47,673 bases of DNA from a virus: the IMG/VR virus record IMGVR_UViG_3300017917_000994, positions 1 to 47,673 of that record. One strand, 5' to 3'. The notes under the pieces are model-generated. The model made no database searches. It saw only the letters and a list, made by a program, of their open reading frames with translations, and was not told the DNA's origin. Shown here one piece after another: positions 1,984 to 19,420 of the stretch (positions within the stretch are counted from its first letter, which is position 1; every line of letters starts with the position of its first letter). The position numbers were made by a program, and so were the translations under genes.

Positions 1984-2472
1984 ATGCGAATTTTAGATAT
2001 TTTAGCCGAAGATAACTTCGTCAGAACAGGCGATGTCTTTGCCATTGAGCTAGATAGCGGCCTACTTATAGAAAGCACTGTAGTTGGTTTTATGCCCGAT
2101 GGAGTGGTTATACAAGGTGACGACGTTATATTATCTTACTTAAAACACCAGCCTGTCAAAGAATCCATGACTAAATTTACAGAAATGCAAATAGCTATTA
2201 TGGAGAGCGGTGGAAGTTTAGATGATCTTAACGAGGCTGAATATCAAGGACGCAATGTTCCTCTAGGCAAACCTATGGCAGGCGATGTTAAAAAATCTAA
2301 GGTTTATGTAAAAGGCCCCAAAGGTAATGTAGTAAAAGTAAACTTCGGCGATAAAACGATGAAGATTAAAAAGAGTAATCCCAAGCGCCGTAAATCATTT
2401 AGAGCACGCCATAACTGCGACAATCCCGGTCCACGTTGGAAAGCACGTTATTGGTCATGCAGGGCTTGGTAA
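1984..2472 (+). CDS. Conserved phage protein with prohead-cleavage-like leader and Cys/Arg-rich C-terminus
   Basis: The 162 residues begin MRILDILAED, an amphipathic leader ending in LAE|D, close to the T4 prohead protease consensus (L/I)-x-E. Residues up to about 55 look like a small beta domain. The last 45 residues are very basic and end in a conserved-looking motif, KRRKSFRARHNCDNPG then ARYWSC, with two Cys and one His that could bind metal or nucleic acid. I recall this C-terminal motif in other marine T4-like phages but know no function. It heads the cluster of similarly led genes; an internal virion protein is inferred. The ribosome site is AAAGAGAG. Confidence 0.55.
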   Translation: MRILDILAEDNFVRTGDVFAIELDSGLLIESTVVGFMPDGVVIQGDDVILSYLKHQPVKESMTKFTEMQIAIMESGGSLDDLNEAEYQGRNVPLGKPMAGDVKKSKVYVKGPKGNVVKVNFGDKTMKIKKSNPKRRKSFRARHNCDNPGPRWKARYWSCRAW

Positions 2473-2477: not shown

Positions 2478-2873
2478 ATGAAACTTTTAGAATTTTTTAA
2501 TATCCCCGATGATAATCCCAGCAGAATTAATATGCAGGGCAAATCTCAAGAAGACAAAAACAAAATACAAGATGAGGTGTACTGGTACATCATAGACAAT
2601 GATGATCTGCACAAACAATATGTATTACCATTTGTCACTGATTTAAAATCTCACCTTTCTAGTCCAGATTTTAACCTCGATCGTTTTAAGAAAAATTGGG
2701 CCCCTATGGTCAACAAAGGGTGCAAGATGTATTATGACGAAAAGAAAATGAAGTCTAATCCAGATAGTTTGTTTACTAAAGAACTTAAGAAAAATCTCTT
2801 AGACAAAATTACTGACAAATACATTGAAGATGTGAAGAACGATAGCTATAATGTGGGAGAACATAAGATATGA
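2478..2873 (+). CDS. Hypothetical small protein of the internal-protein cluster
   Basis: This reading frame of 131 residues is set from the ATG at 2478, five bases after the preceding stop. An in-frame TTG at 2436 lies inside the upstream gene and is unlikely to be used. The N-terminus MKLLEFFNI resembles the amphipathic leaders of its neighbours but lacks an (L/I)-x-E cleavage site nearby. The body is highly charged and helical (many Lys, Asp, Asn) with no known motif. Its stop overlaps the next start (ATGA), so it belongs to the same transcript. Function unknown. Confidence 0.55.
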   Translation: MKLLEFFNIPDDNPSRINMQGKSQEDKNKIQDEVYWYIIDNDDLHKQYVLPFVTDLKSHLSSPDFNLDRFKKNWAPMVNKGCKMYYDEKKMKSNPDSLFTKELKKNLLDKITDKYIEDVKNDSYNVGEHKI

Positions 2874-3760
2874 TTCTACATGAAGGCGGAAATGAATTTA
2901 AATATGCCGATGGTGCTAACGCAACTAAGCAAAATGCTTCCACTGAAGAAGTAGATTCTGTTTTAGGTGCATTAAGCAAAGAACTAGGCATTGACTTATT
3001 AGCCAAAGATTTAGAAAATCAATGGAAGCATAAAACAGGTTCAACCATATACCACGGTGCTGAAACAGGTGATGCAGATACACTATTAGATCCTGTCGAC
3101 TTTATTAAAGTAGAACCAGGTACACCTGCCAAAGATGCTCAAAATCAATTTAGAAATTGGCTAGCACAAAAACTACAAACAGCTGGATACAAAGAATTAC
3201 CAAAAAAATCTGCTGTTCCCCAGTTAGGAAAATTTTATAAAATATCCGGAGACGGGCTTACTGCCTGTGTACAAATACCAGGTGGAGAAGAATGGCTACA
3301 AGTTGATTTAGATATAGCCGAACCAGGTGAAGGAAAGTTTTCTGTATGGAGCAAACGTGGAGAACCAAATGAACCCGGAACTCCTAAAGATGCTAGAGCC
3401 AAAGGAGCATATCGCCATATACTTTTATCGGCAATCGGTAGTATACTAGTAAGTCAAGAACATCCACAAGGACTTAGTTGGAGTTTTAAAAACGGTCTTA
3501 TTGATAGGGGTACTAAAGAGATTGTTACCAAAGACCCAAATGAAGTTGCTAAAATATTGTTTAATGGTAAGGCCAGTGATTTAGAAAACATCAATACAAT
3601 TTTAGCTAAACTTAAACAATCACATCCCGGTCAGTATAACGATATTGTACAAAAAGTTAATGCAGGTTTAGAAAATTATAAAACACAGTATAAACTAAAA
3701 GAACATCATACCATAGGAAGTAATCAATGGTTTAGAGGTTTAATGGATCGCCTATCATGA
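2870..3760 (+). CDS. Putative pol-beta-superfamily nucleotidyltransferase, virion-cluster
   Basis: The 296-residue product carries the nucleotidyltransferase signature in order: G57-S58, nine residues, then D68-A-D70, and a third acidic strand VDLD at 144-147. This is the hG[GS]x9-13Dh[DE] pattern of the pol-beta superfamily, whose members add nucleotides to RNA, proteins or antibiotics. The N-terminus is MILHE|GG, which fits the (L/I)-x-E|G prohead-protease consensus after only five residues. It overlaps its neighbours on both sides by ATGA. The target is unknown. The function rests on motifs seen by eye, so a non-catalytic relative is possible. Confidence 0.5.
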   Translation: MILHEGGNEFKYADGANATKQNASTEEVDSVLGALSKELGIDLLAKDLENQWKHKTGSTIYHGAETGDADTLLDPVDFIKVEPGTPAKDAQNQFRNWLAQKLQTAGYKELPKKSAVPQLGKFYKISGDGLTACVQIPGGEEWLQVDLDIAEPGEGKFSVWSKRGEPNEPGTPKDARAKGAYRHILLSAIGSILVSQEHPQGLSWSFKNGLIDRGTKEIVTKDPNEVAKILFNGKASDLENINTILAKLKQSHPGQYNDIVQKVNAGLENYKTQYKLKEHHTIGSNQWFRGLMDRLS

Positions 3761-4896
3761 AAATAAAAGAACTTTTATCAGAAGCCGCAGGTGCAATAGG
3801 TCGAAAGTATCAGCATATTGAAGACTTAGTGTTTACCAACGGCAGTCATGGTGGATTACATGCCGTAGAAAGACTTAGAGACATGGAAAGTTCTGGCGGA
3901 TCTATTGAGTTAAAGTGGGACGGTAGTCCAGTAGTCTATTGGGGCAAAGACGAGCAAGGCAGGTTTAGTCTGATACCTAAAAATGCTTGGGAATATCTTA
4001 AGAGAGGAAAAAGTGAAGTTTCTCCGGGTGTTCCTACTGCTATGTATAATCCCGAAGATATTAAAAAATTTATTTTAGGTACTGGAAAACCTTCTACTCA
4101 AGAAGAACAACATCAAAGACAGGCCTATGCTCAGTCTATGTCAGAGCTATGGGGTTATTTTGAACGTATTAGTCCTCCCAAAGGTTACATAGAAGGAGGA
4201 ATATTATTCAGCCCAGAAAAACCTGCTCAACTTAATCCAAAGACCAACGAATACGAATTCCAACCAAATATTACACAATTTCATATTCCTGCTACCAGTA
4301 AGCTAGGTAAAAGAATTGGCAAAGCAAAAGTTATGGTTGCGGCCACGGGTTATTATGAAACCATAGGCAGTTCAGAAGAGTCAAGATTTCCAGGTGCAGA
4401 AAATTTAAGTACGCCAGATATTATAGTACAAGGCACTACCTATGTAGAACAGGCACCAGGTGCTAATACCAAAGACCTCAATAATATAGAAAAATTTATA
4501 CAAAAAAATTCTAACCTAATAGATAATTTCCTTGCTCCTAAGCCAGGGCTGAGTAAGCCTGGAGATATTCTTTACAAATTCTATAATCAGAATCTTAGAA
4601 TAGAAGGTGTTAAAGCTAAGTTTAAAGATTGGGCTGAGAAAAATCTCAGCCAAGGTCAGGCAGCAAAGGTTGTTAATGATCCCGGACTAGAAGTAGTATT
4701 AGATGCTGTAGAAATGCTGACCAAAGAAAAACAACAGATTATTGCCGCGTTGAGCAGTAGTCAGCACGGAGATATTAGACAAACTAAACCAGAGGGATAT
4801 GTTCAAGCACACCCCGGTAAACAATTTAAACGAGATTTACCAGGACAGTTTGTAAAAGCTATTGATCAAGCAACATGGGCTCCAAGGAAAGACTAA
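3757..4896 (+). CDS. Conserved marine-phage protein with a KxDG (nucleotidyl ligase-like) motif
   Basis: The 379-residue protein starts MKIKELLSEA, a leader with an LSE|A cleavage-like site. At residues 50-56 it has IELKWDG, matching motif I (K-x-D-G) of the covalent nucleotidyltransferase superfamily of DNA/RNA ligases and capping enzymes. YIEGGILF (144-151) and a Lys-rich GKRIGKAKV (184-192) lie where later motifs could fall. I recall this N-terminal region as a conserved hypothetical of marine T4-like phages. Ligase activity is inference: the remaining ligase motifs are not clear. It follows a pol-beta-like gene and precedes a HIGH-type one, so three different nucleotidyl-transfer folds may be side by side. 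Confidence 0.5.
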   Translation: MKIKELLSEAAGAIGRKYQHIEDLVFTNGSHGGLHAVERLRDMESSGGSIELKWDGSPVVYWGKDEQGRFSLIPKNAWEYLKRGKSEVSPGVPTAMYNPEDIKKFILGTGKPSTQEEQHQRQAYAQSMSELWGYFERISPPKGYIEGGILFSPEKPAQLNPKTNEYEFQPNITQFHIPATSKLGKRIGKAKVMVAATGYYETIGSSEESRFPGAENLSTPDIIVQGTTYVEQAPGANTKDLNNIEKFIQKNSNLIDNFLAPKPGLSKPGDILYKFYNQNLRIEGVKAKFKDWAEKNLSQGQAAKVVNDPGLEVVLDAVEMLTKEKQQIIAALSSSQHGDIRQTKPEGYVQAHPGKQFKRDLPGQFVKAIDQATWAPRKD

Positions 4897-4897
4897 T

Positions 4898-7663
4898 ATG
4901 CTATTAAGAAATTTATTTGAAGCAATATCAAAACCAGTACCAATCAAAACTGCTGTATTAGGTTGGGGCAGAGGAATGGGGCATAAGGGCCATATGTTGT
5001 TAGCTAAAGCTGTATTACACCACGCCCGAGAAAATTCAGCTAAACCTTATTTCGTTGTTTCAAGAACAAGTATTGTTGATCCGAGCACAGGTCAACCTTG
5101 GACAGATAAACCTACATTTACTAAAACTAAAGACGATCCTTTAACTCCAGAAGAAAAATTACGTACATACAGAAAAGTGTTTCCCCAACACGCGGAAGTG
5201 TTTACTGTTCCAGAAGCTAATGCCACTAAATTAGAACAGGTAATAGCAAAGATTGCCAAAGACGGATTTAAAAAAGTTATTTTAGTAGTCGGACAAGATC
5301 AAAAAGATTCTATGGGTTACTTAATTAGGCCCGATAAGTCTGGTATACCTCCTTATCAACAGGCCGGATTACAAAACTTAGAAATAATTTCTAGGCAAGA
5401 CACAAAAGAACCTAGTAGCATGAGAGGTAGTCCCGAATATCAAGAAGGCCCTCGAGCTACACCTATGCGTCAGATTCTCTTAGATCCTTCGAAGAGTGAA
5501 GATGAACAATTTGCAGTTTGGCGAAGAGATATGCCGGATGATCTCAGCGATGAAGAAGTATTAGATCTCATGCGTAAAGCCAAACAGCGCATGAGCATGG
5601 TCCCGGCTTCAAAAAAATCACAGGCAATTAAAGAATCTTTACAAGACAAAATAAAAGCTATTGCAGCTTTAAATAATATTGCAGACGTTAATAAAATTAA
5701 CGCAGGACAAGTTTTAAAATTGCCAGGCGGTGGCACATATAAAGTTGTATACGGTGACACACTGTCTCAGATTGCATCTAAGTTAAACTTTCCAACAACT
5801 CCATCTAGGCCGGCGACTGCGCCAAGTTTAGGTGCGCCAACAGCGGTTCAAGCCCCGGGTACACGCCCGCCGAGCAATCCCGGCCCCGGTAGAAGTGCTG
5901 GAGTAGGAGGAGCTACTGCAAAAGAATTAGATGATTATGAAAAATCAAAAAATGCATCCGGAGTAAGGCCAGGACCTAATCCTAATATTGACCAAGCAAC
6001 TAGAGACCGAGCTTTAGCTTCTGTTAAACCTAGTTCAACAGTTACTCAGCAACCAAACAATCAACCACAATCTCAGACAGGTCAGAATCAACCATCGCAG
6101 AGTGCTCAGGCTACTGCACAACAAAATATTCCAGCAAATGCTGTAAGAACTGGTTCAGGCGGAGTCTTAACGACATCCGACGGAACACCTGTTACTAGCG
6201 GAGATTTGCCAGATTTTAAAGCTATAGAGGCAGCTAAAGAAAAGTTGACTCCAAGTCAATTAAGATGGTTAGGAGACTCCGATCCTACCGATCCTGCAAT
6301 TATGGCAAGAATGCCGAAACCAGAACCCGGTGAAAAGCCCGTTGGTGGTACAAAACCTAGCACTGCTGATCCAAGAGATAATACAAATCCAACAGATGCA
6401 AGATTAGCAACTGGAAAACAAACTGCACCAGCTGACGCAAAAACAAGCAGTAAATCAAACTTAGATAGAATACTACAATTTACATCTAACACAGGCAGTC
6501 GTCAGAATTTTGATAAACTTCAAGATACATTCCAAGAAAAAGTAGAGGCGGCGGCAGCTGAATACTTTGAAAAGACAGGAAAAAAATTACAAATTAATAG
6601 TGCTGTCAGAGATGCCGCAGACCAACAAAGATTATGGGATATATCTGTTGCCAACGGAACACCTGGAAAAATGCCTAATGGATTCCCTGTAGCTAAACCT
6701 AAACCAGGAGGTGGCGGTAGCGACCATGAAAGAGGGGTAGCAATAGACATTCAACAGGGAATAAACGACCCTGTTGCTATACAGATACTTAAGAAATATG
6801 GATTATTTCAAACAGTAGCCGGAGATCCTGTACACTTTACTGAACCAAAAGGCGGCAATACAGCTCCTCCTCCAAATGTTGTAAGATCTTCAGACGGATC
6901 TCCTGTTAGATCAGGGTCTGGCGGATACGTGACCTCCGGAGAAACAAAGCCAGGAACAGACAAACCGATACAATCAATACGCGGTAGTGGCCCGGGCTTT
7001 ATCGAAATAATAACTCCCGATGGAGAAGTACAAAGAAGAGAAGGTAGAGCAAATTGGAGAATGAACAATCCTGGAAATATTAGAGTGAGTGATTGGACAA
7101 AACGTCAGCCAGGATTTATAGGAGTCGGCGATGCAGGATCTAGCGGAAAATTTGCAGTATTCTCTACACTTGCCGACGGTATCAGAGCTAAAAAGAATCT
7201 ATTGTTTGGCCCTGGATCAAGTTATATTAATCTTTCAATTAAAAAAGCCATAGAAAGATATGCACCAGAAAGCGATGGCAATAAAACATCATCATATATT
7301 GACCGAGTAGTACAAGCAACTAAAGCTAGTCCAGACACTTTGTTGAGTCAACTGTCGGCTTCACAAAGAGAAGCTATGTTTGACACAATTAATAAGGTTG
7401 AAGGTTTTCAAGTAGGAAAAATACAAACTGTTCAAACAGCAGTAGGCGAAGGAAACACCAAGGAAAAACCTAAAAAAACTTGGTCTGATTACGGCATGCC
7501 AGATAAAAAAGAAGTTTCTAAAGACAAACACTATCATAGCTGGCAAGAATACGAAGAAGAAAAAAAGAAAAAAGAACAGAAAAAACAAGTTGCCGTTGGA
7601 GAAGATATACAAGTAAAAATCAGCAATCTTATAAGCATATTAGAAACCAAACACAGAAAATAA
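4898..7663 (+). CDS. Multidomain protein: HIGH nucleotidyltransferase, LysM, M15 peptidase, transglycosylase-like
   Basis: The start is the ATG at 4898, eight bases after AAGGAA; a TTG at 4862 lies inside the previous gene. The 921 residues (numbered here from 4898) begin MLLRNLFEA, another LFE|A leader. Residues 20-240 resemble a cytidylyltransferase (GRGMGHKGH for the GxxxPxxxGH loop, then SSMRGS). Residues 255-300 hold LysM sequence. A Pro/Gln/Thr-rich linker follows. Residues 525-650 match peptidase M15 (SDHERGVAID and DPVHF zinc motifs). Residues 720-845 match phage transglycosylase-like domains (MNNPGNI, FAVFSTLADGIRA, YAPESD). The tail is Lys/Glu-rich. It probably binds and cuts peptidoglycan, perhaps on entry; the role of the first domain is unknown. 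Confidence 0.7.
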   Translation: MLLRNLFEAISKPVPIKTAVLGWGRGMGHKGHMLLAKAVLHHARENSAKPYFVVSRTSIVDPSTGQPWTDKPTFTKTKDDPLTPEEKLRTYRKVFPQHAEVFTVPEANATKLEQVIAKIAKDGFKKVILVVGQDQKDSMGYLIRPDKSGIPPYQQAGLQNLEIISRQDTKEPSSMRGSPEYQEGPRATPMRQILLDPSKSEDEQFAVWRRDMPDDLSDEEVLDLMRKAKQRMSMVPASKKSQAIKESLQDKIKAIAALNNIADVNKINAGQVLKLPGGGTYKVVYGDTLSQIASKLNFPTTPSRPATAPSLGAPTAVQAPGTRPPSNPGPGRSAGVGGATAKELDDYEKSKNASGVRPGPNPNIDQATRDRALASVKPSSTVTQQPNNQPQSQTGQNQPSQSAQATAQQNIPANAVRTGSGGVLTTSDGTPVTSGDLPDFKAIEAAKEKLTPSQLRWLGDSDPTDPAIMARMPKPEPGEKPVGGTKPSTADPRDNTNPTDARLATGKQTAPADAKTSSKSNLDRILQFTSNTGSRQNFDKLQDTFQEKVEAAAAEYFEKTGKKLQINSAVRDAADQQRLWDISVANGTPGKMPNGFPVAKPKPGGGGSDHERGVAIDIQQGINDPVAIQILKKYGLFQTVAGDPVHFTEPKGGNTAPPPNVVRSSDGSPVRSGSGGYVTSGETKPGTDKPIQSIRGSGPGFIEIITPDGEVQRREGRANWRMNNPGNIRVSDWTKRQPGFIGVGDAGSSGKFAVFSTLADGIRAKKNLLFGPGSSYINLSIKKAIERYAPESDGNKTSSYIDRVVQATKASPDTLLSQLSASQREAMFDTINKVEGFQVGKIQTVQTAVGEGNTKEKPKKTWSDYGMPDKKEVSKDKHYHSWQEYEEEKKKKEQKKQVAVGEDIQVKISNLISILETKHRK

Positions 7664-7688: not shown

Positions 7689-8126
7689 ATGGAAGAGCTA
7701 CAAAAAGCAGCTAAAATAGGGTTTGCTAGTTCCTTTAGTTTTTATCTAAAGGCGCATAATTTCCACTGGAATGTAGAAGGCAGCGATTTTTTAGAATATC
7801 ACGATTTATTTGGTAAAATCTATGAAGAAGTATATGGTAGCATAGACGACTATGCTGAAAAAATACGTGCCCTAGGTACCTATGTTCCAGCAAGTTTTCA
7901 AAGATTTACAATGTTGTCTCAAATAGAAGACGAAACAAAAATACTAGATAAAGATTCAATGGTTTTAGAATTATTATCAGACAATGAAAAACTAATTAAA
8001 ATTCTAAAATTAGTTTATGATCGTGCAGAAGCAGAAGGTGAACACGGGTTCAGTAACTTTTTAGCAGAAAGAATGGACGCACATCGAAAGCACGGCTGGA
8101 TGCTAAAAGCTAGCACAAAGGGTTGA
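7689..8126 (+). CDS. dps: Dps-family ferritin-like protein
   Basis: This protein of 145 residues is a clear Dps/ferritin-like protein: KAHNFHWNVEG, then EYHDLFGKIYEEVYGSID, then DYAEKIRALG give the conserved His, His, Asp and Glu of the intersubunit ferroxidase centre. The C-terminal AERMDAHRKHGWML also fits the family. Dps dodecamers oxidise and store iron, remove peroxide and often bind DNA. The N-terminal extension is short and not basic, so DNA binding through a tail is not obvious. Unlike its neighbours it lacks a cleavable leader. Lying among likely virion internal proteins, it could protect phage DNA during infection or be carried in the particle; both are inference. Confidence 0.85.
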   Translation: MEELQKAAKIGFASSFSFYLKAHNFHWNVEGSDFLEYHDLFGKIYEEVYGSIDDYAEKIRALGTYVPASFQRFTMLSQIEDETKILDKDSMVLELLSDNEKLIKILKLVYDRAEAEGEHGFSNFLAERMDAHRKHGWMLKASTKG

Positions 8127-8128: not shown

Positions 8129-8500
8129 ATGAGAGCAAGCGAATTTATCAACGAAGCTAAAAAGGGAAAAATTCCTCATCGAACTCAGCAACCTAGTAAA
8201 GGTCTGCACAAGTTTACTGATGGTAGCAAATGGAACAGCGATTACACACAGCATCGTTTAGGCATGGCGTTAGCTAAAACAGACGGTTCATTTGTTCCCG
8301 ACATTGAAGAAGAAAGCTGGGTTGGTAGATGGAAAACTGCACATCCTTACACCGAAGTCGAAGCAGACATGTTAAAAATGGCTTATAAAGCTGTAAATGC
8401 AAATTACGTAGACATGAACCACAATGATTTAGACAGCGAAGAATTAAAAAGCACTAATACAGTTAGCCCTATCCCAGATAGAGCAAAATTAAAAAAATGA
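8129..8500 (+). CDS. Conserved small protein with INE|A leader
   Basis: The ATG at 8129 is preferred over a TTG at 8123 because AAAGGG lies six bases before it and the product then begins MRASEFINEA, nearly matching the T4 capsid-targeting peptide (MKTYQEFIAEA). The 123 residues include a central SWVGRWKTAHPYTEVEADML segment, which I associate with many marine phage relatives of unknown role. It is soluble, mixed charge and has no catalytic motif I know. The end overlaps the next gene by ATGA. An internal capsid protein cleaved after INE is inferred. Confidence 0.6.
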   Translation: MRASEFINEAKKGKIPHRTQQPSKGLHKFTDGSKWNSDYTQHRLGMALAKTDGSFVPDIEEESWVGRWKTAHPYTEVEADMLKMAYKAVNANYVDMNHNDLDSEELKSTNTVSPIPDRAKLKK

Positions 8501-8736
8501 AAATACTAGACCTACTATCAGAAGCTGGCGGAGTTAGTTCAACTACATCAGGAAATATTTCTGCTGTTGTTAATCCTGGCATGACTAATGTAGGAAAAAA
8601 TTCAGCTGCCGGCAAGCCAGGTAAGATGGCTAAAAAAGGTCCTAAGCAATTTATGCCAAAGGCTCAGGGACCCGGAACTAATGCTTTAGATATGAATGTA
8701 GGTCTTATGACTGGTGCCGTTATTAAGAGAAAATAA
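8497..8736 (+). CDS. Small basic protein with LSE|A leader
   Basis: This 79-residue protein starts MKILDLLSEAGG, a leader ending in a prohead-protease-like LSE|A site. The mature part would be about 70 residues, rich in Gly, Lys, Ala and Pro, with no acidic cluster (GKPGKMAKKGPK in the middle), suited to binding DNA. Small basic proteins with such a leader are how T4 internal proteins IPI-III look. ATGA overlap with the gene before. No family recognised. Confidence 0.5.
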   Translation: MKILDLLSEAGGVSSTTSGNISAVVNPGMTNVGKNSAAGKPGKMAKKGPKQFMPKAQGPGTNALDMNVGLMTGAVIKRK

Positions 8737-8739: not shown

Positions 8740-9642
8740 ATGATTAACGAACATAAAAAAGGCGTTAAAGCCATGAAGTATACAACAAAACCAAAAACAG
8801 CTAATCCTGTGGCTAAAAATGCAGGTTCTACAACTATTAGTTCTGCAGGTTCTCACTATCAAGGTAAAGATCAAAAAAAGAAAGCTAAACACGGTGAAGT
8901 TAAACACAAAAAGCAAATGGACATGGCCGAAGGATTTGATAATCCCGAATATGATGATGAAGCCGGTATGGCCGATAACAATTTAGAAACTCTTAAGAGA
9001 GCGGTACAAGGACTTGACGATCTTATTCAGTCAGGCGACAATTTACCCGAGTGGTGCCAAGAAAAAATTGCTGTAGCAAAAAGCACATTAGTAAATGTAT
9101 GGGACTACATGAGATCAGAACAAGATTCTCAAGGACAGATAAACGAATATGAAACTCATACTTACAAAGACAGTCAAGGTAATGTATGGCGTGTTAACGA
9201 CGAAGGTGATCGCGAATTAATCCAAGCCGCGCCCGGTAGTAGTTATGGTAGAAGTAGATATCCTAGAAGACCTTCGGTGTCCAAACCTAGCGGAATGTAT
9301 TTTTACAATGTCAAACCTGGACAAGAAAGCGATGCCATGTCCGCTGGTTTAAAACAAACTAAATCAGGAAAATGGTATTCAAGCTATCAAAATCCTTCTG
9401 CAGAAAAGACATTTGGACCTGGTAAGTTTTGGCAACCTAAAAGTGAAGGTGTAGCAGAAGATAATTTACCAGAAGGTAAAATAAAAGGGGTTGATGGCAA
9501 AGCCTGCTGGAAGGGTAAACGCTATGCCGGTAAGGTTAAAAAAGCAGACGGCACATACAAAGACAAGTGTGTGCCAATGGAGTCAAATGATTGGTATTCA
9601 TTTAGATTAGAACTTTTATTGAACGAACAAATTAAAAAATGA
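8740..9642 (+). CDS. Conserved multi-segment internal-cluster protein
   Basis: The 300-residue product starts MINEH, giving INE after only four residues. An alternative start at Met12 would lose it. The first 60 residues are Lys-rich. Residues about 80-125 contain LPEWCQEKIAVAKSTLVNVWDYM, a segment I know from many marine T4-like phage proteins. Near the end IKGVDGKACWKGKRYAGK and CVPM form a small Cys/Trp-rich motif also common in such phages. The C-terminus is hydrophobic then basic (RLELLLNEQIKK) with another LNE. The body looks mosaic, built of reusable phage segments. Function unknown; a virion internal or scaffold role is inferred from context. Confidence 0.5.
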   Translation: MINEHKKGVKAMKYTTKPKTANPVAKNAGSTTISSAGSHYQGKDQKKKAKHGEVKHKKQMDMAEGFDNPEYDDEAGMADNNLETLKRAVQGLDDLIQSGDNLPEWCQEKIAVAKSTLVNVWDYMRSEQDSQGQINEYETHTYKDSQGNVWRVNDEGDRELIQAAPGSSYGRSRYPRRPSVSKPSGMYFYNVKPGQESDAMSAGLKQTKSGKWYSSYQNPSAEKTFGPGKFWQPKSEGVAEDNLPEGKIKGVDGKACWKGKRYAGKVKKADGTYKDKCVPMESNDWYSFRLELLLNEQIKK

Positions 9643-9926
9643 ACGATTGGCGTCAGGTTAAAATTACATCTAATAATTTATTTCAGCCAGCCGACGACGA
9701 CTGTATATTGCCCCCAAACGATCCGGCCTATGAATTAGCTAAGATGCAATATCTAGCAGGGCTAGGATATACTCCGTCAATTAAAGAAACTGTGGATAAA
9801 AATATTACTCACACAGCGGCTGAAAATGCCCGTATTATGAAAGAAAAAAATATTAAACCAGGAAAACCTGAATGGTTTAAACTATGGTTTAGTTTGCCGT
9901 ACCTTACTGGCGAAAAGAAAGCATAA
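9639..9926 (+). CDS. Hypothetical protein closing the internal-protein cluster
   Basis: This 95-residue protein overlaps the gene before by ATGA. It has an acidic N-terminal part (PADDDCILPPNDPAYELAKM) and a C-terminal KPEWFKLWFSLPYLTG motif that I associate with marine phage proteins. No leader, membrane segment or catalytic motif is evident. It is the last gene before the largest gap in the window. Confidence 0.5.
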   Translation: MNDWRQVKITSNNLFQPADDDCILPPNDPAYELAKMQYLAGLGYTPSIKETVDKNITHTAAENARIMKEKNIKPGKPEWFKLWFSLPYLTGEKKA

Positions 9927-9927
9927 G

Positions 9928-10037
9928 TGTACGGCCACAGGTAGCCCGCTCGTCTGCCAATTCGTTGGTGCCTCAAGAAGAAAAGTGGAAAACTCTCGAA
10001 TCCAGGATCCCTGTGACGCCACTTTAACAACCGTACA
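9928..10037 (+). ncRNA. Possible structured (pseudoknotted) RNA
   Basis: Three exact complementary pairs are visible. TGTACGG (9928-9934) pairs with CCGTACA (10031-10037), enclosing everything else. CACAGG (9936-9941) pairs with CCTGTG (10010-10015). AAAGTGG (9982-9988) pairs with CCACTTT (10019-10025). The last two cross, which is the topology of a pseudoknot. GGTAG (9941-9945) could also form a local stem with CTGCC (9954-9958), one pair being G-U and G9941 being shared. The stretch is more GC-rich than its surroundings and has no reading frame of note. I cannot assign it to a known riboswitch, ribozyme or tRNA. Because a promoter lies downstream, it may be a 3' element of the preceding mRNA. 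Confidence 0.35.
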
Positions 10038-10057
10038 AAATATTTAAACCAAACCTC

Positions 10058-10086
10058 TTGACTATTAAGTATGTATAGCATAAAAT
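10058..10086 (+). promoter_or_regulatory. Sigma70-type promoter before the dsbA-like gene
   Basis: TTGACT (10058-10063), a 17-base spacer, then TAAAAT (10081-10086). Transcription would start near 10093, just before CCTAGGAG and the ATG at 10107. This is an early/host-polymerase type promoter and would drive the dsbA-membrane-polymerase genes. Confidence 0.7.
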
Positions 10087-10106
10087 ATTAACCTAGGAGA
10101 TAAAAT

Positions 10107-10376
10107 ATGAGCAAATCATTCGGAGCGCCCGAACAGGCTAAAATTAAACAGATTGTTGCCGAAGGCTGCACAGTCATGCAAGAAATTCAGGATCTTACAG
10201 AAGGACTCAACGAAACAATTAAAGCAGTCGCAGAAGAATTAGACGTTAAACCTAGCGTTATTCGAAAAGCAATTCGTATTGCATTAAAAGACCAGTGGGA
10301 TCAAGTATTCCGTGAGTTTGATGATTTGGAGACTATTGTAGACATCAGTGGACACGCAAACCGTCGTGAGGATTAA
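10107..10376 (+). CDS. dsbA: DsbA-like late-transcription DNA-binding protein
   Basis: The product of 89 residues has exactly the length of T4 DsbA, a double-stranded DNA-binding protein that helps late transcription, and a similar layout: an N-terminal helix (AKIKQIVAEGCTVMQEI), a linker, and a helix-turn-helix-like ELDVKPSVIRKAIRIAL segment at about 48-64. Sequence identity to T4 is low by eye, so the name rests on length, pattern and the location among replication and transcription genes of marine T4-like phages. It has its own promoter and a strong AGGAG site, and its stop overlaps the next start (TAATG). Confidence 0.55.
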   Translation: MSKSFGAPEQAKIKQIVAEGCTVMQEIQDLTEGLNETIKAVAEELDVKPSVIRKAIRIALKDQWDQVFREFDDLETIVDISGHANRRED

Positions 10377-10672
10377 TGATTGTAGATTTACTAAGGCCAA
10401 CCTTCGAATGGATCAAAGATGATTGGCTATCTAATAAGTTTCGATTCTGTGTTGAATTCTTAGCTTGGGCTATTAGTATCGGTTGTAGTATTACTATGGC
10501 TGTTACTGTACCTGATCCTCCGTTACTTGTCCTATATCCGTTATGGATCAGTGGTTGCGCTATGTATGCTTGGGCTAGCTTTACACGTAAAAGCTTTGGC
10601 ATGTTAGCCAACTATCTGTTGCTAACAACAATAGATAGCATAGGCCTAGTAAGGATGCTAAATATTTTATGA
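10376..10672 (+). CDS. Small membrane protein, conserved in marine T4-like phages
   Basis: The 98-residue protein has two or three hydrophobic helices: about residues 26-47 (CVEFLAWAISIGCSITMAV), 50-68 (LLVLYPLWISGCAMYAWA) and a weaker one at 74-90. An acidic/aromatic N-terminal segment (EWIKDDWL) precedes them. It is translated by TAATG coupling to the dsbA-like gene. I recall this family as a conserved hypothetical placed near DNA polymerase in marine phages. Its role is unknown; membrane anchoring of replication or holin-like activity are possible but unsupported. Confidence 0.6.
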   Translation: MIVDLLRPTFEWIKDDWLSNKFRFCVEFLAWAISIGCSITMAVTVPDPPLLVLYPLWISGCAMYAWASFTRKSFGMLANYLLLTTIDSIGLVRMLNIL

Positions 10673-10681
10673 ATAAGGTTC

Positions 10682-10727
10682 GGCGAGCCATAAATCGCTA
10701 TGTGAAGGTCAGTGGGCCATAAACCAC
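10682..10727 (+). promoter_or_regulatory. Tandem operator hairpins before DNA polymerase
   Basis: Two hairpins share an identical 8-base loop, GCCATAAA. Hairpin 1 has stem GGCGA/TCGCT (10682-10686 with 10695-10699, the outer pair G-U) and loop 10687-10694. Hairpin 2 has stem GTGG/CCAC (10712-10715 with 10724-10727) and loop 10716-10723, ending next to the Shine-Dalgarno GAGGAG (10728-10733). T4 gp43 represses its own mRNA by binding a 5-bp, 8-base-loop hairpin at this same place. The loop sequence differs from T4's, as expected for a diverged polymerase. Confidence 0.7.
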
Positions 10728-10741
10728 GAGGAGAAAAATTA

Positions 10742-13411
10742 ATGAGTTATGTTGACGGTATTTGGGACCGTGACAATGATATTGTCAAAATTGTTGAGAG
10801 AGATCCTAAAAAAGGTCGTCTGTATCAAGAGTATCCCGCAAAGCACATCTTTTACTACCCCGATCAAAGAGGCAAGTATAAATCTATATACGGCGAAAAT
10901 CTTTCTAAGGTAGTATGCAAAAACTTTAAAGACTTCCAAAAAGAACTAAGAATACACAGCAATCATAAACTATATGAAAGCGATATAAACGTTGTATTCC
11001 GCACGTTAGAAGAAAACTATCTCGGAAAAGAAGCTCCTAAACTTAATGTAGCTTTTTTCGATATTGAGGTAGACTTTGACCCCGAAAGAGGCTATGCTTC
11101 GCCCGATGACGCATTTATGCCTATAACTGCTATTGCAGTTCACCTTCAATGGTTAGATACACTTGTTTGTCTAGCAGTTCCTCCTAAAACACTAAGCATA
11201 GAGCAGGCCAAAGAACAGGTCAAAGATTTCCCTAACACTATACTTTTTGATTCAGAGGCAGAAATGTTAGACACATTTTTAAATCTAATCGAAGATGCTG
11301 ATGTGTTAAGTGGTTGGAATTCAGAAGGCTTTGATATTCCTTATACTGTAAACCGAGTCACTAAAGTTTTAAGCAAAGAAGATACCAGACGTTTTTGTCT
11401 ATGGGATCAATTTCCTAAAAAGAGAGAGTACGAAAAATATGGGAAGCAGGCCGTTACTTATGACCTTATTGGTCGTGTTCACCTTGATAGCCTTGAGCTG
11501 TACAGAAAATATACCTATGAAGAACGTCATACCTACAGGCTCGATGCCATTGGAGAAATGGAAATAGGTGAGTCTAAGACTGTCTACGAAGGAACACTGG
11601 ATCAACTTTATAATAATGATTTTCGTAAGTTCATAGAATATAATAGACAGGACTGCGCCCTTCTTAATAAATTAGATAGAAAATTAAAATTTATTGACTT
11701 AGCCAATACCATTGCACATGAAAATACTGTGCTGTTACAGACCACTATGGGTGCCGTAGCCGTTACTGAACAGGCTATTGTAAACGAGGCGCATCATAGA
11801 GGACTTATTGTACCTAGCAGGCCACGACGCGATGACAGTGTTGATACACAGGCTGCTGGTGCTTATGTAGCTTATCCTAAGAAAGGTATCCATGACTGGA
11901 TTGGTTCAATGGATATTAACAGTCTGTATCCGTCAGTAATTAGAGCACTGAATATGGGTCCAGAAACTATTATCGGTCAGTTACGCCCAGTTTATACTAA
12001 AAATTATATCGAAGGGGAAATGGCCAAGGGTAAAAGTTTTGCGGCAGCGTGGGAAGGTAAATTTGGCAGTTTAGAATATGACTTTGTCATGTCACAAAAC
12101 AGAGCCACAGAAATTACTGTAGATTGGGAAAATGGTGAACAGACCATAATGAGTGCCGCCGAAATCTATGAATTGATTTTTAACAGTAGCAAGCCGTGGA
12201 TGCTCAGTGCCAACGGTACAATCTTTACCTATGAGTTTGAAGGAATCATTCCTGGACTATTAGCAAGATGGTATAAAGAACGTAAAGAGATGCAGGCCAA
12301 ATTAAAAGAAGCAATTAAAGCGGAGAATAAAATTGAAGAAGAATATTGGGATAAACGTCAGTTGGTTAAAAAGATTAACCTTAATAGCTTATATGGTGCT
12401 ATTCTTAATGCTGGTTGTAGGTTTTTCGATAATCGTATCGGACAGTCTACCACACTTACAGGACGCCAAATTGCCAAACACATGGCTAGTAAAATCAATG
12501 AGGTCGTAACGGGCGAATACAATCACATAGGTAAATCAATTATATATGGTGATACAGACTCGGCATATTTCTCAGCATATTCTACTCTTAAAACAGATAT
12601 CAGCAAAGGACTAGTTCCCTGGGACAAAGATACTGTTATACAGCTATACGATACTATTGCCGGGGAAGTAAATTCTACATTCAGTCATTTTATGTTAGAA
12701 GCTTTCCATTGTCCTAAGAGTCGCGGGGAAGTTATTAAGGCTGGTCGAGAAATTGTTGCCAGCAAAGGATTATTCATTACCAAGAAACGTTATGCTGTTC
12801 TGTATTACGACAAGGAAGGTAAGAGAACCGACTTAGACGGAAAGAGTGGTAAAATTAAAGCTATGGGTCTTGATCTTAAACGTTCAGATACGCCAGAATT
12901 TATGCAGAAGTTTTTAGAAGAAATTCTGACTATGGTTCTTAATGGTTCTGAAGAAAAAGAAGTACTAGAACGCATCAGTGAATTCCGTACAGAATTTAAA
13001 GCTCGTCCAGGATGGGAGAAGGGTAGTCCCAAACGTGCTAATAACATTACTGACTATCAAGAAAAAGAACGCAAGGCAGGCAAAGCAAATATGCCGGGAC
13101 ATGTTCGCGCCAGCATTAACTGGAATACATTAAAGAGATTGAATTCGGACAAGTACTCAATGGGTATTGTTGACGGTATGAAAGTTATTGTTTGTAAGCT
13201 AAAAGATAATCCGTTAGGGTATACGTCTGTAGCTTACCCCACCGACGAACTTCGATTACCTAAATGGTTTCAAGAATTACCATTTGATCATAGTGAAATG
13301 GAAGCTACTATTATCAATAATAAATTAGACAACCTCATAGGGGTATTAGAGTGGGACTTAGAATCCACTACTCAAGAGAACACATTCAATTCATTATTCA
13401 GCTTTGAATGA
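10742..13411 (+). CDS. 43: Family B replicative DNA polymerase (T4 gp43 type)
   Basis: The start is ATG 10742 after GAGGAG, giving 889 residues (T4 gp43 has 898). Exonuclease motifs are FDIEVD (about 106-111), SGWNSEGFDIPY (about 190-201) and YNRQD (about 300). Polymerase motifs are DINSLYPS (about 391), KKINLNSLYG (about 543) and YGDTDS (about 602). The C-terminus ends FNSLFSFE, like the clamp-binding tail of gp43. All catalytic acids are present, so proofreading and synthesis should be intact. No intein or homing gene interrupts it. Two hairpins just upstream probably allow self-repression. The clamp gene follows with its own promoter. Confidence 0.97.
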   Translation: MSYVDGIWDRDNDIVKIVERDPKKGRLYQEYPAKHIFYYPDQRGKYKSIYGENLSKVVCKNFKDFQKELRIHSNHKLYESDINVVFRTLEENYLGKEAPKLNVAFFDIEVDFDPERGYASPDDAFMPITAIAVHLQWLDTLVCLAVPPKTLSIEQAKEQVKDFPNTILFDSEAEMLDTFLNLIEDADVLSGWNSEGFDIPYTVNRVTKVLSKEDTRRFCLWDQFPKKREYEKYGKQAVTYDLIGRVHLDSLELYRKYTYEERHTYRLDAIGEMEIGESKTVYEGTLDQLYNNDFRKFIEYNRQDCALLNKLDRKLKFIDLANTIAHENTVLLQTTMGAVAVTEQAIVNEAHHRGLIVPSRPRRDDSVDTQAAGAYVAYPKKGIHDWIGSMDINSLYPSVIRALNMGPETIIGQLRPVYTKNYIEGEMAKGKSFAAAWEGKFGSLEYDFVMSQNRATEITVDWENGEQTIMSAAEIYELIFNSSKPWMLSANGTIFTYEFEGIIPGLLARWYKERKEMQAKLKEAIKAENKIEEEYWDKRQLVKKINLNSLYGAILNAGCRFFDNRIGQSTTLTGRQIAKHMASKINEVVTGEYNHIGKSIIYGDTDSAYFSAYSTLKTDISKGLVPWDKDTVIQLYDTIAGEVNSTFSHFMLEAFHCPKSRGEVIKAGREIVASKGLFITKKRYAVLYYDKEGKRTDLDGKSGKIKAMGLDLKRSDTPEFMQKFLEEILTMVLNGSEEKEVLERISEFRTEFKARPGWEKGSPKRANNITDYQEKERKAGKANMPGHVRASINWNTLKRLNSDKYSMGIVDGMKVIVCKLKDNPLGYTSVAYPTDELRLPKWFQELPFDHSEMEATIINNKLDNLIGVLEWDLESTTQENTFNSLFSFE

Positions 13412-13419
13412 AAAATTGT

Positions 13420-13448
13420 TTGACATTAATCATTTTTCTAAATAAACT
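13420..13448 (+). promoter_or_regulatory. Sigma70-type promoter before the sliding clamp
   Basis: TTGACA (13420-13425), 17-base spacer, TAAACT (13443-13448). Transcription would begin near 13455, leaving a leader of about a dozen bases that contains AAGGAA before the ATG at 13467. Confidence 0.65.
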
Positions 13449-13466
13449 AAACAAAAGGAACAAATC

Positions 13467-14201
13467 ATGAAAGATATTTTACAAGACATCGTTAGCCATA
13501 CACATAATCTTGGCTTTTTAAATATTGTTAAAGTTACTGGTACTGATACAAAAACCAGTATAGATTCAATGGCAGATGACAGGTCTGTTATTATGACAGC
13601 AGAAACTGCAAATCCGTATCCGGAAATGGTTGGTGTTTTTGGCATGCCACAATTAAACAAATTAAAATATCTTCTCGACGGAGGAGAATATAAAGAAAAC
13701 GCCAAAATTGATATTGTCACGTCAACTAGGAATGGTGATGTAATACCAGTTGGTATTCATTTTGAAAACAAAGATGGTGACTTTAAAAATGATTATAAGT
13801 TCATGAACACTGAGATCATTAATGAAAAATTAAAGGCATATAAGTTCAAAGGTGTTAAATGGGACGTTGAAGTTAGTCCTAGCTTGCAATCCGTTCAACG
13901 ATTTAGCTTTCAAGCAGGTGCAAATTCTGAGCATACAACTTTTATTGCTAAGACAGATAACGGTAGTTTAAAGTTTACGTTCGGAGATGCTAGTTCACAC
14001 GGGGGTGAATTTGTTTTTGCAACTAATATCACAGGCAACCTAAATAAAGCGTGGGCATGGCCAGTTGCAAGTGTTCTCAGCATTTTAAAATCTTCAGATG
14101 CAAATAATACCAAAGTAAGTTTTAGTAATGAAGGTGCAATGATGATTACCTTAGATAGTGGCCTAGCAGTTTACAAATATATTATTCCGGCACAAGCATG
14201 A
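13467..14201 (+). CDS. 45: Sliding clamp, DNA polymerase accessory protein (T4 gp45 type)
   Basis: The 244 residues match the clamp of marine T4-like phages rather than T4 closely: VGVFGMPQLNKLKYLL near 55, IPVGIHFENKDGDFKNDYKFMN near 92, WDVEVSPS near 133 and ITLDSGLAVYKYIIPAQ at the end, the last typical of clamp C-termini. The trimeric ring tethers polymerase to DNA and in T4 also activates late transcription with gp33 and gp55. T4 gp45 is 228 residues. It follows the polymerase directly; the loader genes (44, 62) are not in this window. ATGA overlaps the next gene. Confidence 0.8.
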   Translation: MKDILQDIVSHTHNLGFLNIVKVTGTDTKTSIDSMADDRSVIMTAETANPYPEMVGVFGMPQLNKLKYLLDGGEYKENAKIDIVTSTRNGDVIPVGIHFENKDGDFKNDYKFMNTEIINEKLKAYKFKGVKWDVEVSPSLQSVQRFSFQAGANSEHTTFIAKTDNGSLKFTFGDASSHGGEFVFATNITGNLNKAWAWPVASVLSILKSSDANNTKVSFSNEGAMMITLDSGLAVYKYIIPAQA

Positions 14202-14581
14202 TAAAAGGGTTAATGGGATCTAATGGTATTGAAGTATCAGGAGGGAATACATCCCTTCAATATGTTAACCAGAATACCAATAACCCCATGCAAGGGATGA
14301 TTCGTATTTGGGGAACAGATATGCAGGTATTCGATGGAACTAGCTGGCAAAATATAGCAACTAGTTATGCCACCGTTCAACTCGATAACAATAGTCGCCT
14401 GTTACTAGAGTGGGTTAAGAACAAGAAACTTGAAGAAGAATCTTTAGCAACTTTACCAACAGATCATCCTTCTGTTAAAGCCGCTAAAGAAAACCTAAAT
14501 AAAGCCAAGCTAGAAGTAAAAAGACTAGAAGAACAATTAAAAATAACAGAGATATTAATTCATGAAGAAACCACCAATTAA
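14198..14581 (+). CDS. Conserved hypothetical protein, two-part (beta head, coiled coil)
   Basis: This 127-residue protein is coupled to the clamp gene by ATGA. Residues 1-60 look like a small beta module (GMIRIWGTDMQVFDGTSWQNI) of a type also seen in phage structural proteins. Residues 65-120 are strongly helical with Lys/Glu heptads (AAKENLNKAKLEVKRLEEQL), a likely coiled coil. I recall relatives in many marine T4-like phages at this locus; no function is known to me. It overlaps dpdA by 20 bases. Confidence 0.6.
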   Translation: MIKGLMGSNGIEVSGGNTSLQYVNQNTNNPMQGMIRIWGTDMQVFDGTSWQNIATSYATVQLDNNSRLLLEWVKNKKLEEESLATLPTDHPSVKAAKENLNKAKLEVKRLEEQLKITEILIHEETTN

Positions 14582-16118
14582 CCTAACACCTTTACAAAAA
14601 GACTATGCTGTCTATTTGCCAGCTATTAGTAGTTTTTATAGCACTTATGTTGCTAAACAGCGACTAGAAGAATTTGTACCTAAAGATCGTATTCCTCAAG
14701 AATTTGATCGAGGAATTGAAGGTATGAACTTTTTAAATCCAGAAGAAGGATATTTCACATACAAGTACGGTCTATACTCTGCAGGTCACGCACAGTTAGA
14801 CTTGAATAAGAGTCTAACACAAGAATCAATGATTCAACAACGTGACCGCAACAATACAATGATCTTAGGTGACTCCGGCGGATACCAGATTGGTAAAGGC
14901 GTTCTTAAGTTTGACTGGTTAAACTTCGAAGGTGCAGAAGCTAACAAGACTCGTCAAAAGATTTTAGAATGGCTTGAACTAACTGCTGACTGGTCAATGA
15001 TGTTAGACGTTCCTACTTGGGCCTGTGATCATATTCATAGTCCTAAAACAGGTTTGAAAACATTCGAAGATTGCTTAGATAAAACACGTTTCAATAACGA
15101 TTATTTCTTAAAGAATCGATTAGGTCAAACCAAGTGGCTCAATGTACTACAAGGCAGTGATTGGGATACTGCCGAACAGTGGTATCAGGGTGTTAAAGAG
15201 TTTAGTGATCCTAAAGGTCCTTATGCCGGCCAAGAAGCAGAAGGTTGGGCCTTTGGTGGTGCTAATATGTGTAAAATGGATATTACACTCAAGCGTCTAA
15301 TGACCTTGCGTGAAGATGGTTTGCTGAAAGGCAAAAATTGGATCCACTTCCTGGGTACTGCTCAGTTAGATTGGTCGTGCTACTTAACTTTAATTCAACG
15401 GGAAATTAGGAAACATATCAATGAAGAAATTACCATATCTTTTGACTGCGCCTCGCCATTTATCGCAACAGCCCACGGACTTGTCTACACCAATGCAGTC
15501 CACACTCCCAAAAGGTGGAGCGTTATTATGGACAAGGCACCAGATAACAAAGCACTTGCAAAGTCCGACATCCCGTTTCCCTTCGAAAGCGAAATCGGCC
15601 GCAGATTAACCTTAGGTGATATTTGTCATTATGCTCCAGGTATGTTAAACAAGATTGGTAAAGAAGGTAAAACTTCATGGGATAGTTTTGCCTATGCTCT
15701 AATGATGGGTCATAATGTTTATTGCCACATTGTTGCTGTACAACGTGCTCAGCAGTTAATGGATATTGAGATTGCTAAAACTAAAGGCAAACTCGATTGG
15801 CGTGCTTGGAAAAAAGTTAAATCTCAAGACATGAGCGACGAATATTCCGATTGGGTCCCACGTAATATTTTATATTTTGCCAACTTTATTGAAGACTTAT
15901 TCAATACTAAAACAAAAGCAGAAGCATTTGATATGATTGAAAAGGCCTTACCATTCTTACGTAGTTTAGAAGGTGCTCGACTACAAGGAGGTCCTGCTCA
16001 AAATAAATTTACATCATTGTTTGAAATTGAAGAAGTCACTCATCAAGATGAGATTGATTTAGCCAATCCAGACGACGATGAGCTCAGAAATCTTGAAGAA
16101 AGCTTGACATTAACATAA
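14562..16118 (+). CDS. dpdA: DpdA-like DNA/tRNA guanine transglycosylase
   Basis: The product of 518 residues has the tRNA-guanine transglycosylase fold motifs in order: DSGGYQ at 104-109 (substrate pocket, general acid/base Asp104), SMMLDVPTW at 145-153, WLNVLQG at 192-198, GWAFGGAN at 228-235, SFDCASP at 293-299 with Asp295 aligned to the TGT nucleophile, and HNVYCH later where a metal ligand is expected. The canonical CxCxxC zinc cluster is not evident. Phage TGT relatives (DpdA) exchange guanine in DNA for a 7-deazaguanine, shielding DNA from restriction. FolE, QueE and a QueD-like gene within 10 kb support that reading. A tRNA substrate cannot be excluded. Confidence 0.75.
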   Translation: MKKPPINLTPLQKDYAVYLPAISSFYSTYVAKQRLEEFVPKDRIPQEFDRGIEGMNFLNPEEGYFTYKYGLYSAGHAQLDLNKSLTQESMIQQRDRNNTMILGDSGGYQIGKGVLKFDWLNFEGAEANKTRQKILEWLELTADWSMMLDVPTWACDHIHSPKTGLKTFEDCLDKTRFNNDYFLKNRLGQTKWLNVLQGSDWDTAEQWYQGVKEFSDPKGPYAGQEAEGWAFGGANMCKMDITLKRLMTLREDGLLKGKNWIHFLGTAQLDWSCYLTLIQREIRKHINEEITISFDCASPFIATAHGLVYTNAVHTPKRWSVIMDKAPDNKALAKSDIPFPFESEIGRRLTLGDICHYAPGMLNKIGKEGKTSWDSFAYALMMGHNVYCHIVAVQRAQQLMDIEIAKTKGKLDWRAWKKVKSQDMSDEYSDWVPRNILYFANFIEDLFNTKTKAEAFDMIEKALPFLRSLEGARLQGGPAQNKFTSLFEIEEVTHQDEIDLANPDDDELRNLEESLTLT

Positions 16119-16132
16119 TTTTATTATAAAAT
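16104..16132 (+). promoter_or_regulatory. Sigma70-type promoter, possibly giving a leaderless mRNA
   Basis: TTGACA (16104-16109), 17-base spacer, TAAAAT (16127-16132), lying in the last codons of dpdA and just past its stop. The expected start of transcription, about seven bases on, falls on the ATG at 16139. No Shine-Dalgarno is present. An AT-only inverted repeat (TATTAT-AAA-ATAATA, 16122-16136) covers the -10 box. Confidence 0.6.
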
Positions 16133-16138
16133 AATATC

Positions 16139-16681
16139 ATGAAACGAGATTATTCATCAGGAACATCGGACAGTATTAACTTCTTTATTGGTAACGAAGT
16201 TGAACATACTCCCGCATTTGGAATGCGTACATTATTTGTAACCGGTGTTCAAAATGAACAGGTTATTGAACATATTCTAACCGAAGAAAACTCGTATGTT
16301 GATACGTCAAAGCATATTAAACATATTTTCTTTGGCGCTAATCACAGTTTTAATCCTCAGTCATATGAAGAACATAAAGCCTGGGAAGATATGATATTTC
16401 ATTTCCTAGACAAGAGCTATCTATGTAGCCTAGATATTCCTATGAATCAAGTAGAAGAATTTCACGAAAGCGGGTACTGCGAGTACGATAATTTTATTCC
16501 GCAAATTCGTGTGCCGATTCCTTACATTCGTTTATGGAATTATAATACAATGCTTAAAATCGATGACCGAGATTTTAAGGCAACCAATCCCGGTGTGTGG
16601 TCCCACAGTCTACACACACTAATGGATCGTAGTAAGTTCACAGACTGGAATCAATACAAAAACGATGAGATTGTAAAATGA
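16139..16681 (+). CDS. Conserved hypothetical protein next to dpdA
   Basis: The product is 180 residues with no known catalytic motif. Visible conserved-looking blocks are SINFFIGNEVEHTPAFGMRTLFVTG near the N-terminus, IKHIFFGANHSF near 60, CSLDIP near 97, and FIPQIRVPIPYIRLWNYNTMLKIDD near 119. The pattern of short strands and helices suggests a small alpha/beta domain. I recall relatives in uncultured marine phages, often near queuosine-type genes. Its place between dpdA and the QueD-like gene makes a helper role in DNA modification a reasonable guess only. There is no ribosome site before the ATG. Confidence 0.55.
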   Translation: MKRDYSSGTSDSINFFIGNEVEHTPAFGMRTLFVTGVQNEQVIEHILTEENSYVDTSKHIKHIFFGANHSFNPQSYEEHKAWEDMIFHFLDKSYLCSLDIPMNQVEEFHESGYCEYDNFIPQIRVPIPYIRLWNYNTMLKIDDRDFKATNPGVWSHSLHTLMDRSKFTDWNQYKNDEIVK

Positions 16682-18620: not shown

Positions 18621-19420
18621 TGGAATCAGGCTCTATTGGCATAATTGGATTAGGCTATGTAGGAAATGCAATTAATCAAAGCATAGATACACATTTGCCG
18701 TTTTTTGAAAAAAAAATATTAGACCCTGCAAAGGGTTATAGATTATATTACAGCGATCTTAAAGACTGCATTGGTATTTTTGTCTGTGTGCCTAGTCCTG
18801 CCAAAGAAGATGGTTCCTGTGATACAAGCATCTTAGAATCAGTATTAGAAAATTTACATAATGTTTCTTATACAGGTGTAATTATAAGCAAGGTCACGGC
18901 TCCTCCCGGAGTATACAAAGAACTTCAAAAAAAATATAAAAATCTAGTTCATGCTCCGGAATTTTTAACAGCGGCCAATGCAGAAAGAGATTACTTTAAT
19001 GCTAAGTTTGCAATTATTGGGGGAGAAGTTATTGCGTATGTTAGAGAAGCAGAAAGGCTAATAAGATTTACTCAAAGTTCTGTTGAAGAAGTAGTACATT
19101 GTTCTATCGAAGAAGCTGCTCTTTCTAAATATATAATTAATTCGTTCTTGGCAACTAAAGTTGTCTTTATGAATGAAATGGAAAATCTTTCCACTAAAAT
19201 GGGATGTAACTGGTCTAATATAATAGAAGCAGTAACATTAGATAAAAGAATTGGCAATAGCCATATGAAGGTTCCCGGAAGTGACGGAACTTACGGATTT
19301 GGTGGAATGTGTTTCCCTAAAGATACTCAAGCTCTTGCAAATCACGCAAAAGAGTATAATATTACTTTAGAAGTTTTAGAAACTGCTATAAAGAAAAATT
19401 TGTTATTAAGGTTAAAATAA
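18620..19420 (+). CDS. ugd: UDP-glucose 6-dehydrogenase, short form
   Basis: Motifs of the UDP-glucose/GDP-mannose dehydrogenase family appear in order: GIIGLGYVG (NAD site) at 7-15, VCVPSP near 54, HAPEFLTAANAERDYFN near 111, KYIINSFLATKVVFMNE near 169 with the active-site Lys, and GFGGMCFPKD near 226 with the catalytic Cys. At 266 residues it lacks most of the C-terminal sugar-nucleotide domain found in the usual 390-450 residue enzymes, so it may rely on a dimer partner or have altered specificity. The start and stop share single-base overlaps with both neighbours. It should make UDP-glucuronate. Confidence 0.88.
   Translation: MESGSIGIIGLGYVGNAINQSIDTHLPFFEKKILDPAKGYRLYYSDLKDCIGIFVCVPSPAKEDGSCDTSILESVLENLHNVSYTGVIISKVTAPPGVYKELQKKYKNLVHAPEFLTAANAERDYFNAKFAIIGGEVIAYVREAERLIRFTQSSVEEVVHCSIEEAALSKYIINSFLATKVVFMNEMENLSTKMGCNWSNIIEAVTLDKRIGNSHMKVPGSDGTYGFGGMCFPKDTQALANHAKEYNITLEVLETAIKKNLLLRLK

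Follow-up and report, generated by a model that had tools for sequence, protein, structure and literature searches.

The window analysed here is the whole 47.7 kb of the viral record IMGVR_UViG_3300017917_000994 (47,673 nucleotides), a lake phage of T4-like aquatic type, the type being judged by a family B polymerase recognised by reading and by homologous modules in Kyanoviridae. Three open reading frames (ORFs), P1, P2 and P3, follow one another there on the plus strand. P1 (2870-3760, 296 amino acids) and P2 (3757-4896, 379 amino acids) share an ATGA overlap, and a single base separates the P2 stop from the ATG of P3 (4898-7663, 921 amino acids counted from that ATG). A preliminary description of this DNA had read the region as three nucleotidyl-transfer ORFs placed side by side and nearly overlapping, and the ORF coordinates bear this out. 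The trio lies where it was said to lie, at 2870-5600, except that the third ORF runs on to 7663. Homologues of P1, P2 and P3 were gathered from viral contigs and aligned, and the motifs first proposed, GS-x9-DAD, VDLD, KWDG and GRGMGHKGH, are all present and conserved beyond chance.

The active-site motif GS-x9-DAD of P1 (G57, S58, D68, D70) lies at 3038..3079 on the plus strand. These four residues and D146 are invariant across 44 aligned homologues with identity down to 23%, and the active-site residues are also invariant in three homologues from jumbo phages. P1 has in this way both marks of the Pol-beta superfamily, GS-x(8-9)-DxD and a third carboxylate. Its AlphaFold2 model (mean predicted local distance difference test score, pLDDT, 82.6; residues 1-6 disordered) has a palm-type fold, and the best 50 structural rows all belong to the Pol X family (Z 8.7-9.3). 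Nearest are Pol lambda (Z 9.3), Pol mu, Pol beta and the minimal Pol X of African swine fever virus (ASFV; Z 9.2, 159 of 178 residues aligned, 3.4 Å), while in BFVD the closest models are uncharacterised phage proteins followed by giant-virus Pol X. Scans of Pfam and PHROGs gave no significant family for P1, and a FecR_C match in Pfam (E 0.01) was rejected as below the cut-off. Among PDB sequences the sole match was the Tailor uridylyltransferase, a weak one (E 0.02), and annotated phages yielded a sequence match only with a divergent pelagic member as query. P1 is predicted, from its model, to be a Pol-beta/Pol X-fold nucleotidyltransferase; its relation to DNA polymerase X activity is one of fold resemblance only.

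P2 matches DUF6267 (Pfam PF19782) with E 4e-19 and 69.6 bits against a cut-off of 27. Neither Pfam nor PHROGs assigns this family a fold or function, and we found no mention of it in the literature searched. The ligase motif I, KWDG (3913..3924, plus strand), is invariant as K53-W54-D55-G56 in the alignment of 47 homologues, and the EG of motif IV and the lysine of motif V (E346, G347, K367) are kept in at least 90% of them, so that P2 has the set of motifs (I KxDG, IV EG, V K) expected of an ATP-dependent nucleic-acid ligase. A search of PDB by sequence gave nothing credible. In the AlphaFold2 model (mean pLDDT 85.1; residues 1-17 below 50) the best 50 structural rows belong without exception to RNA or DNA ligases, including the DNA enzymes of T4 and human, and are headed by the Naegleria RNA ligase at a modest Z of 6.7; the Foldseek E value was 0.05. 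The model points to P2 as an ATP-ligase-fold nucleotidyltransferase.

The N-terminal nucleotidyltransferase domain of P3 occupies 4946..5593 (plus strand) and corresponds to the cytidyltransferase families phrog_3041/395. It has the HxGH and the C-terminal Ser/Thr-x-x-Arg of HIGH-type nicotinamide mononucleotide (NMN) adenylyltransferases, as HKGH at 4982-4993 and TPMR at 5459-5470. G31, H32 and R191 are invariant and H29 is kept in at least 90% of the 42 aligned homologues. The conserved C-terminal arginine is R191 within GPRATPMR; the SxxMR named in the preliminary description (EPSSMR in P3) is not conserved, and the motif that is conserved is ATPMR. No Pfam or NCBIfam model matched this domain of the window P3 itself, and a PDB sequence search with P3 found nothing. 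Some relatives match the NMN adenylyltransferase family TIGR00482 (4.5e-07) and CTP_transf_like. From these family profiles of relatives we predict that the domain is an NMN adenylyltransferase-type HxGH nucleotidyltransferase. The remainder of P3 is a variable tail (5651..7456, plus strand) with LysM at 5651-5725, a VanY-like module at 6560-6772 and a lysozyme-like module at 7058-7456; Pfam itself gave LysM and a sub-threshold VanY match. Such tails differ widely among relatives, and a cut site that would separate the tail shows a tendency only (30 of 66, against 9.6 by shuffling). The tail, with its LysM and cell-wall hydrolase modules, looks like exchangeable cargo.

Of the comparisons asked for by the preliminary description, that of predicted structures led from P1 to Pol X and from P2, with modest Z, to ligases, while the fold of P3 is supported by the family profiles of its relatives. 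The acidic and lysine residues, whose loss in most homologues was to count against the proposal, were not lost in the P1 and P2 alignments.

How stable is this arrangement across relatives? Of the 100 distinct P2 domains compared, 54 have P1 as their immediate upstream neighbour and 31 are fused to it; P1 is missing from 9 and could not be tested in 6, which makes 85 of 94 adjacent or fused. For P3 the figures are 83 immediately downstream, 3 fused, 1 at a distance of 386 bases and 9 absent (86 of 96 adjacent or fused), the set without P3 consisting of pelagic-type contigs that keep only P1-P2. The P1-P2-P3 order thus recurs across P2 homologues, and natural fusions join P1 to P2, P2 to P3 (contig L130) and all three. 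In contigs L157 and L098 the trio and the next gene form a single ORF, the triple fusions being of 991 and 1002 amino acids. In the jumbo phages PA5oct, Phosso and Atu_ph07 the P1 homologue adjoins a KxDG ORF in reversed order; that of Atu_ph07 resembles Pfam RNA_ligase with E 0.002, below the curated cut-off. Because the pairing recurs in different gene orders, we argue that P1 and its ligase-type partner share a function. As far as sequence allows us to judge, the P1-P2-P3 trio is a functional unit. The earlier suggestion that the three enzymes act in sequence is supported by the conserved order and the natural fusions, and the interpretation as a whole is partly supported.

Departures from this arrangement were also seen. 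Record G004 (of L056) has its P1 homologue at 3698-4516, far from P2, the sole such case among the records searched. In phages without P1 the place before DUF6267 is taken by a gene that seems to differ from phage to phage (L174 10643-11980, L175 10523-11980, L024 10920-12005), and in P-HM1 it is phrog_1462; this slot may hold alternative partner enzymes.

Each protein of the trio begins with a candidate capsid-targeting leader on the plus strand. P1 starts with MILHE (2870..2884; predicted cut E|GG), in its disordered N-terminus, and P2 with MKIKELLSE (3757..3783; predicted cut before AAG), in a stretch of low pLDDT. P3 starts with MLLRNLFE (4898..4921; cut before A). P1 and P2 have the L/I-x-E site of T4-type internal head protein leaders and P3 a near match to it. 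The T4 internal proteins IPII and IPIII start with MKTYQEFIAE|A and T4 gp24 with MAKINELLRE|S, which the window leaders resemble; the ten N-terminal residues are enough to bring IPIII into the head, and the gp21 cut follows L/I-x-E (PMC9026906). Strict N-terminal leaders number 4 in the window against 0.06 expected and 5 in T4 against 0.07, with none in lambda. Since the strict pattern overlooked the majority of leaders in Methylophilales phage Melnitz and in L003, family-based tests were used. The cut site was found at 68 of 69 distinct P1 N-termini (shuffle mean 11.5), 43 of 48 for P2 (7.6) and 30 of 58 for P3 (6.6), shuffles that overstate independence because the homologues are related. 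At P1-P2 junctions inside fused proteins it was present in 26 of 27 (shuffle mean 1.2). The letters flanking the site vary while the site itself stays. The P1 homologues of jumbo phages begin with M-GG or M-SG right at the predicted cut position, which fits a removable N-terminal extension.

Data on proteases and virions come from relatives. A predicted Peptidase_S77, the gp21-type prohead protease, is present in all six relatives' records that hold gp23. P3-homologous cytidyltransferases are virion proteins of S-SM1 (PMC3037559) and S-SZBM1 (PMC9146016), the latter bearing the leader MRFRQFIIE|A, and one was found in the S-CREM2 virion, where the authors speculate on injection (PMC10665884). 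The distant P1 homologue of PA5oct, EST35_0231, is annotated as 'structural protein, ESI-MS/MS'. For the window phage we infer the packaging of P1 and P2 and the cleavage of their leaders.

These observations can be joined in one explanation, to which we give about an even chance: the trio would belong to the T4-type internal head proteins and serve, once injected, as a kit for the repair of nucleic-acid ends. The short leader would target each protein, or in some relatives the fused polyprotein, into the prohead, where a gp21-type protease would cut after (L/I)xE and free P1, P2 and P3. The three would then be ejected together with the DNA into the host, before any viral gene expression. P1 would add the missing nucleotide or nucleotides and P2 would reseal the strand. 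We infer that the product of P3 is probably nicotinamide adenine dinucleotide (NAD) or a similar dinucleotide; in the window phage P3 would bring cell-wall hydrolase modules as extra cargo. The favoured substrate would be tRNA, or another RNA, cleaved by host defences of the anticodon-nuclease type, since no repair enzyme can be produced once the ribosome is blocked, a problem that preloading would avoid. The full version, a three-enzyme repair polyprotein packaged, cut by the prohead protease and injected to mend defence-cut tRNAs despite blocked translation, we put forward tentatively, as a possibility. The T4-like leaders lend support to the earlier proposal that the enzymes act in a freshly infected cell.

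Several known systems resemble the trio in part. Operons of RlaP and RNA ligase in jumbo phages, proposed to restore bases lost from cut tRNAs before sealing (PMC7824862), also place a Pol-beta-fold nucleotidyltransferase beside a KxDG ligase; the trio differs in its third nucleotidyltransferase, packaging-type leaders and fusions, and in that P1 does not match RlaP. Since P1 is not RlaP by profile, the claim is that the trio works like RlaP-RNA ligase, not that it is one. T4 IPI-III and Alt have the same short leader ending in L/I-x-E|A/G and varied injected cargo, and a gp21-type protease is found in the relatives of the trio as well. In contrast, the cargo of the trio is nucleotidyltransferases, the sites also occur inside fused polyproteins, and its packaging is proposed. 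The cyanophage DUF6267 (T4-GC71, phrog_455) and cytidyltransferase (T4-GC190, a virion protein) correspond by homology to P2 and P3 and share their order, but no P1 homologue was found in the three isolates tested. Polyvalent proteins are likewise injected multidomain proteins that mix Pol-beta nucleotidyltransferases with wall-attacking domains (PMC5512222), but the hub domains of that class were absent from the Pfam matches of the proteins scanned, and the trio fuses a Pol-beta nucleotidyltransferase, a ligase and a HIGH nucleotidyltransferase. The base-excision repair set of ASFV also has virion-carried Pol X and ligase (PMC12172490), in an unrelated virus. The preliminary statement that no described pathway has this set was therefore too strong, since Pol-beta nucleotidyltransferase and RNA ligase operons are described, and DUF6267 and the cytidyltransferase already make up one phage family, phrog_455, of unassigned function. 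In the literature searched we met no description of all three enzymes together with packaging leaders.

A number of points, besides the relatedness of the homologues, weigh against the packaged end-repair explanation. Only about half of the P3 N-termini have the cut site, the DUF6267 gene of S-SZBM1 offers no in-frame start codon from which a leader could be read, and the P-HM1 cytidyltransferase has no leader. The virion evidence concerns homologues in other phages, the close relatives being known as metagenomic contigs. Detection in the S-CREM2 virion is possibly carry-over according to its authors (PMC10665884), and DUF6267 was not among the 30 virion proteins of S-SZBM1 (PMC9146016), which is one case. 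No match to gp21, gp23 or gp20 was found in the window or in its nearest long relative L003 (138 kb), probably because both are fragments. The RlaP profile (PF10127) had no match in the window or in 14 related records, while three controls matched. The fold predicted for P1 is closest to DNA polymerases X, and the structural matches of P2 are modest (Z below 8).

This last pair of points leads to the main rival, packaged DNA repair, in which P1 as a gap-filling Pol X and P2 as a DNA ligase would close nicks and gaps of the incoming genome while a Dps-like neighbour guards the DNA. The closeness of P1 to Pol lambda, mu and beta and to ASFV Pol X, the DNA ligases among the P2 matches, the Dps-like gene adjoining the trio and the Pol X, ligase and AP endonuclease packaged by ASFV (PMC12172490) are in keeping with it. 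However, the top P2 matches are RNA ligases, although DNA ligases stand within about 1 Z and the two kinds are not separated. Moreover, the jumbo-phage partner ORF resembles Pfam RNA_ligase, and no AP endonuclease or glycosylase lies beside the trio in the ORF lists read. We regard this explanation as possible, if rather doubtful. It is unlikely that the trio is an unpackaged cytoplasmic operon for repair and NAD, its leader-like N-termini arising by chance from shared start regions or being a localisation signal of another kind: two cyanophage DUF6267 proteins have no leader and that of S-SZBM1 went undetected in the virion, but the cut site is retained within fusions, which need no start codon there, the leaders match those of T4 internal proteins, and P1 and P3 homologues were found in virions. 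Injected polyvalent proteins with Pol-beta nucleotidyltransferases and peptidoglycan-attacking domains (PMC5512222), together with the multidomain nature of P3, would also suit modifiers of host proteins, with P1 and P3 transferring nucleotides to those proteins once injected, as has been suggested for the Pol-beta nucleotidyltransferases of polyvalent proteins, and P2 as a capping or adenylating partner. The recurrent pairing with a ligase-fold enzyme points instead to nucleic-acid ends, and the P1 fold matches nucleic-acid polymerases, so we think this very improbable.

The neighbours of the trio, all on the plus strand, include further leader-bearing ORFs: MRILDILAE|D at 1984..2472, MRASEFINE|A at 8129..8500 (whose relative in L157 and L098 is joined to the trio) and MKILDLLSE|A at 8497..8736. 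Between P3 and the second of these lies the Dps/ferritin-like gene (7689..8126; Pfam Ferritin, E 1e-17), which adjoins P3 in several relatives too. Both the ORF 1984-2472 and the P3 of Melnitz (L024 15290-15526) end in the C-terminal module of phrog_7595 (RKSFRARHNC...YWSC), which may be a mobile module in such proteins. Beside the P1 homologue of Atu_ph07 (L217) a run of similar-sized genes (9588-16360) starts in a leader-like way, with MRWHQLIE|N, MKWHQLTE|A and MRWDQLTE|A. Some of them share a 'PLYRG' motif that looks ADP-ribosyltransferase-like; no such Pfam match was found in the genes scanned. Elsewhere in the window, genes at 14562-16118, 19420-20205 and 23291-24148 resemble, by reading, DpdA/TGT, FolE and QueE, which suggests 7-deazaguanine modification of the phage DNA. 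A 992-amino-acid ORF on the minus strand (38558-41536), beside tail-fibre-like genes, reads like a candidate subtilisin-type (S8) protease.

DUF6267, present in many T4-like cyanophages, thereby gains a predicted fold and a partner. The leader with its L/I-x-E site offers a simple sequence rule for candidate injected proteins of abundant aquatic phages. If the proposed explanation is true, phages preload repair enzymes because no protein that must first be synthesised can counter a defence which halts translation.

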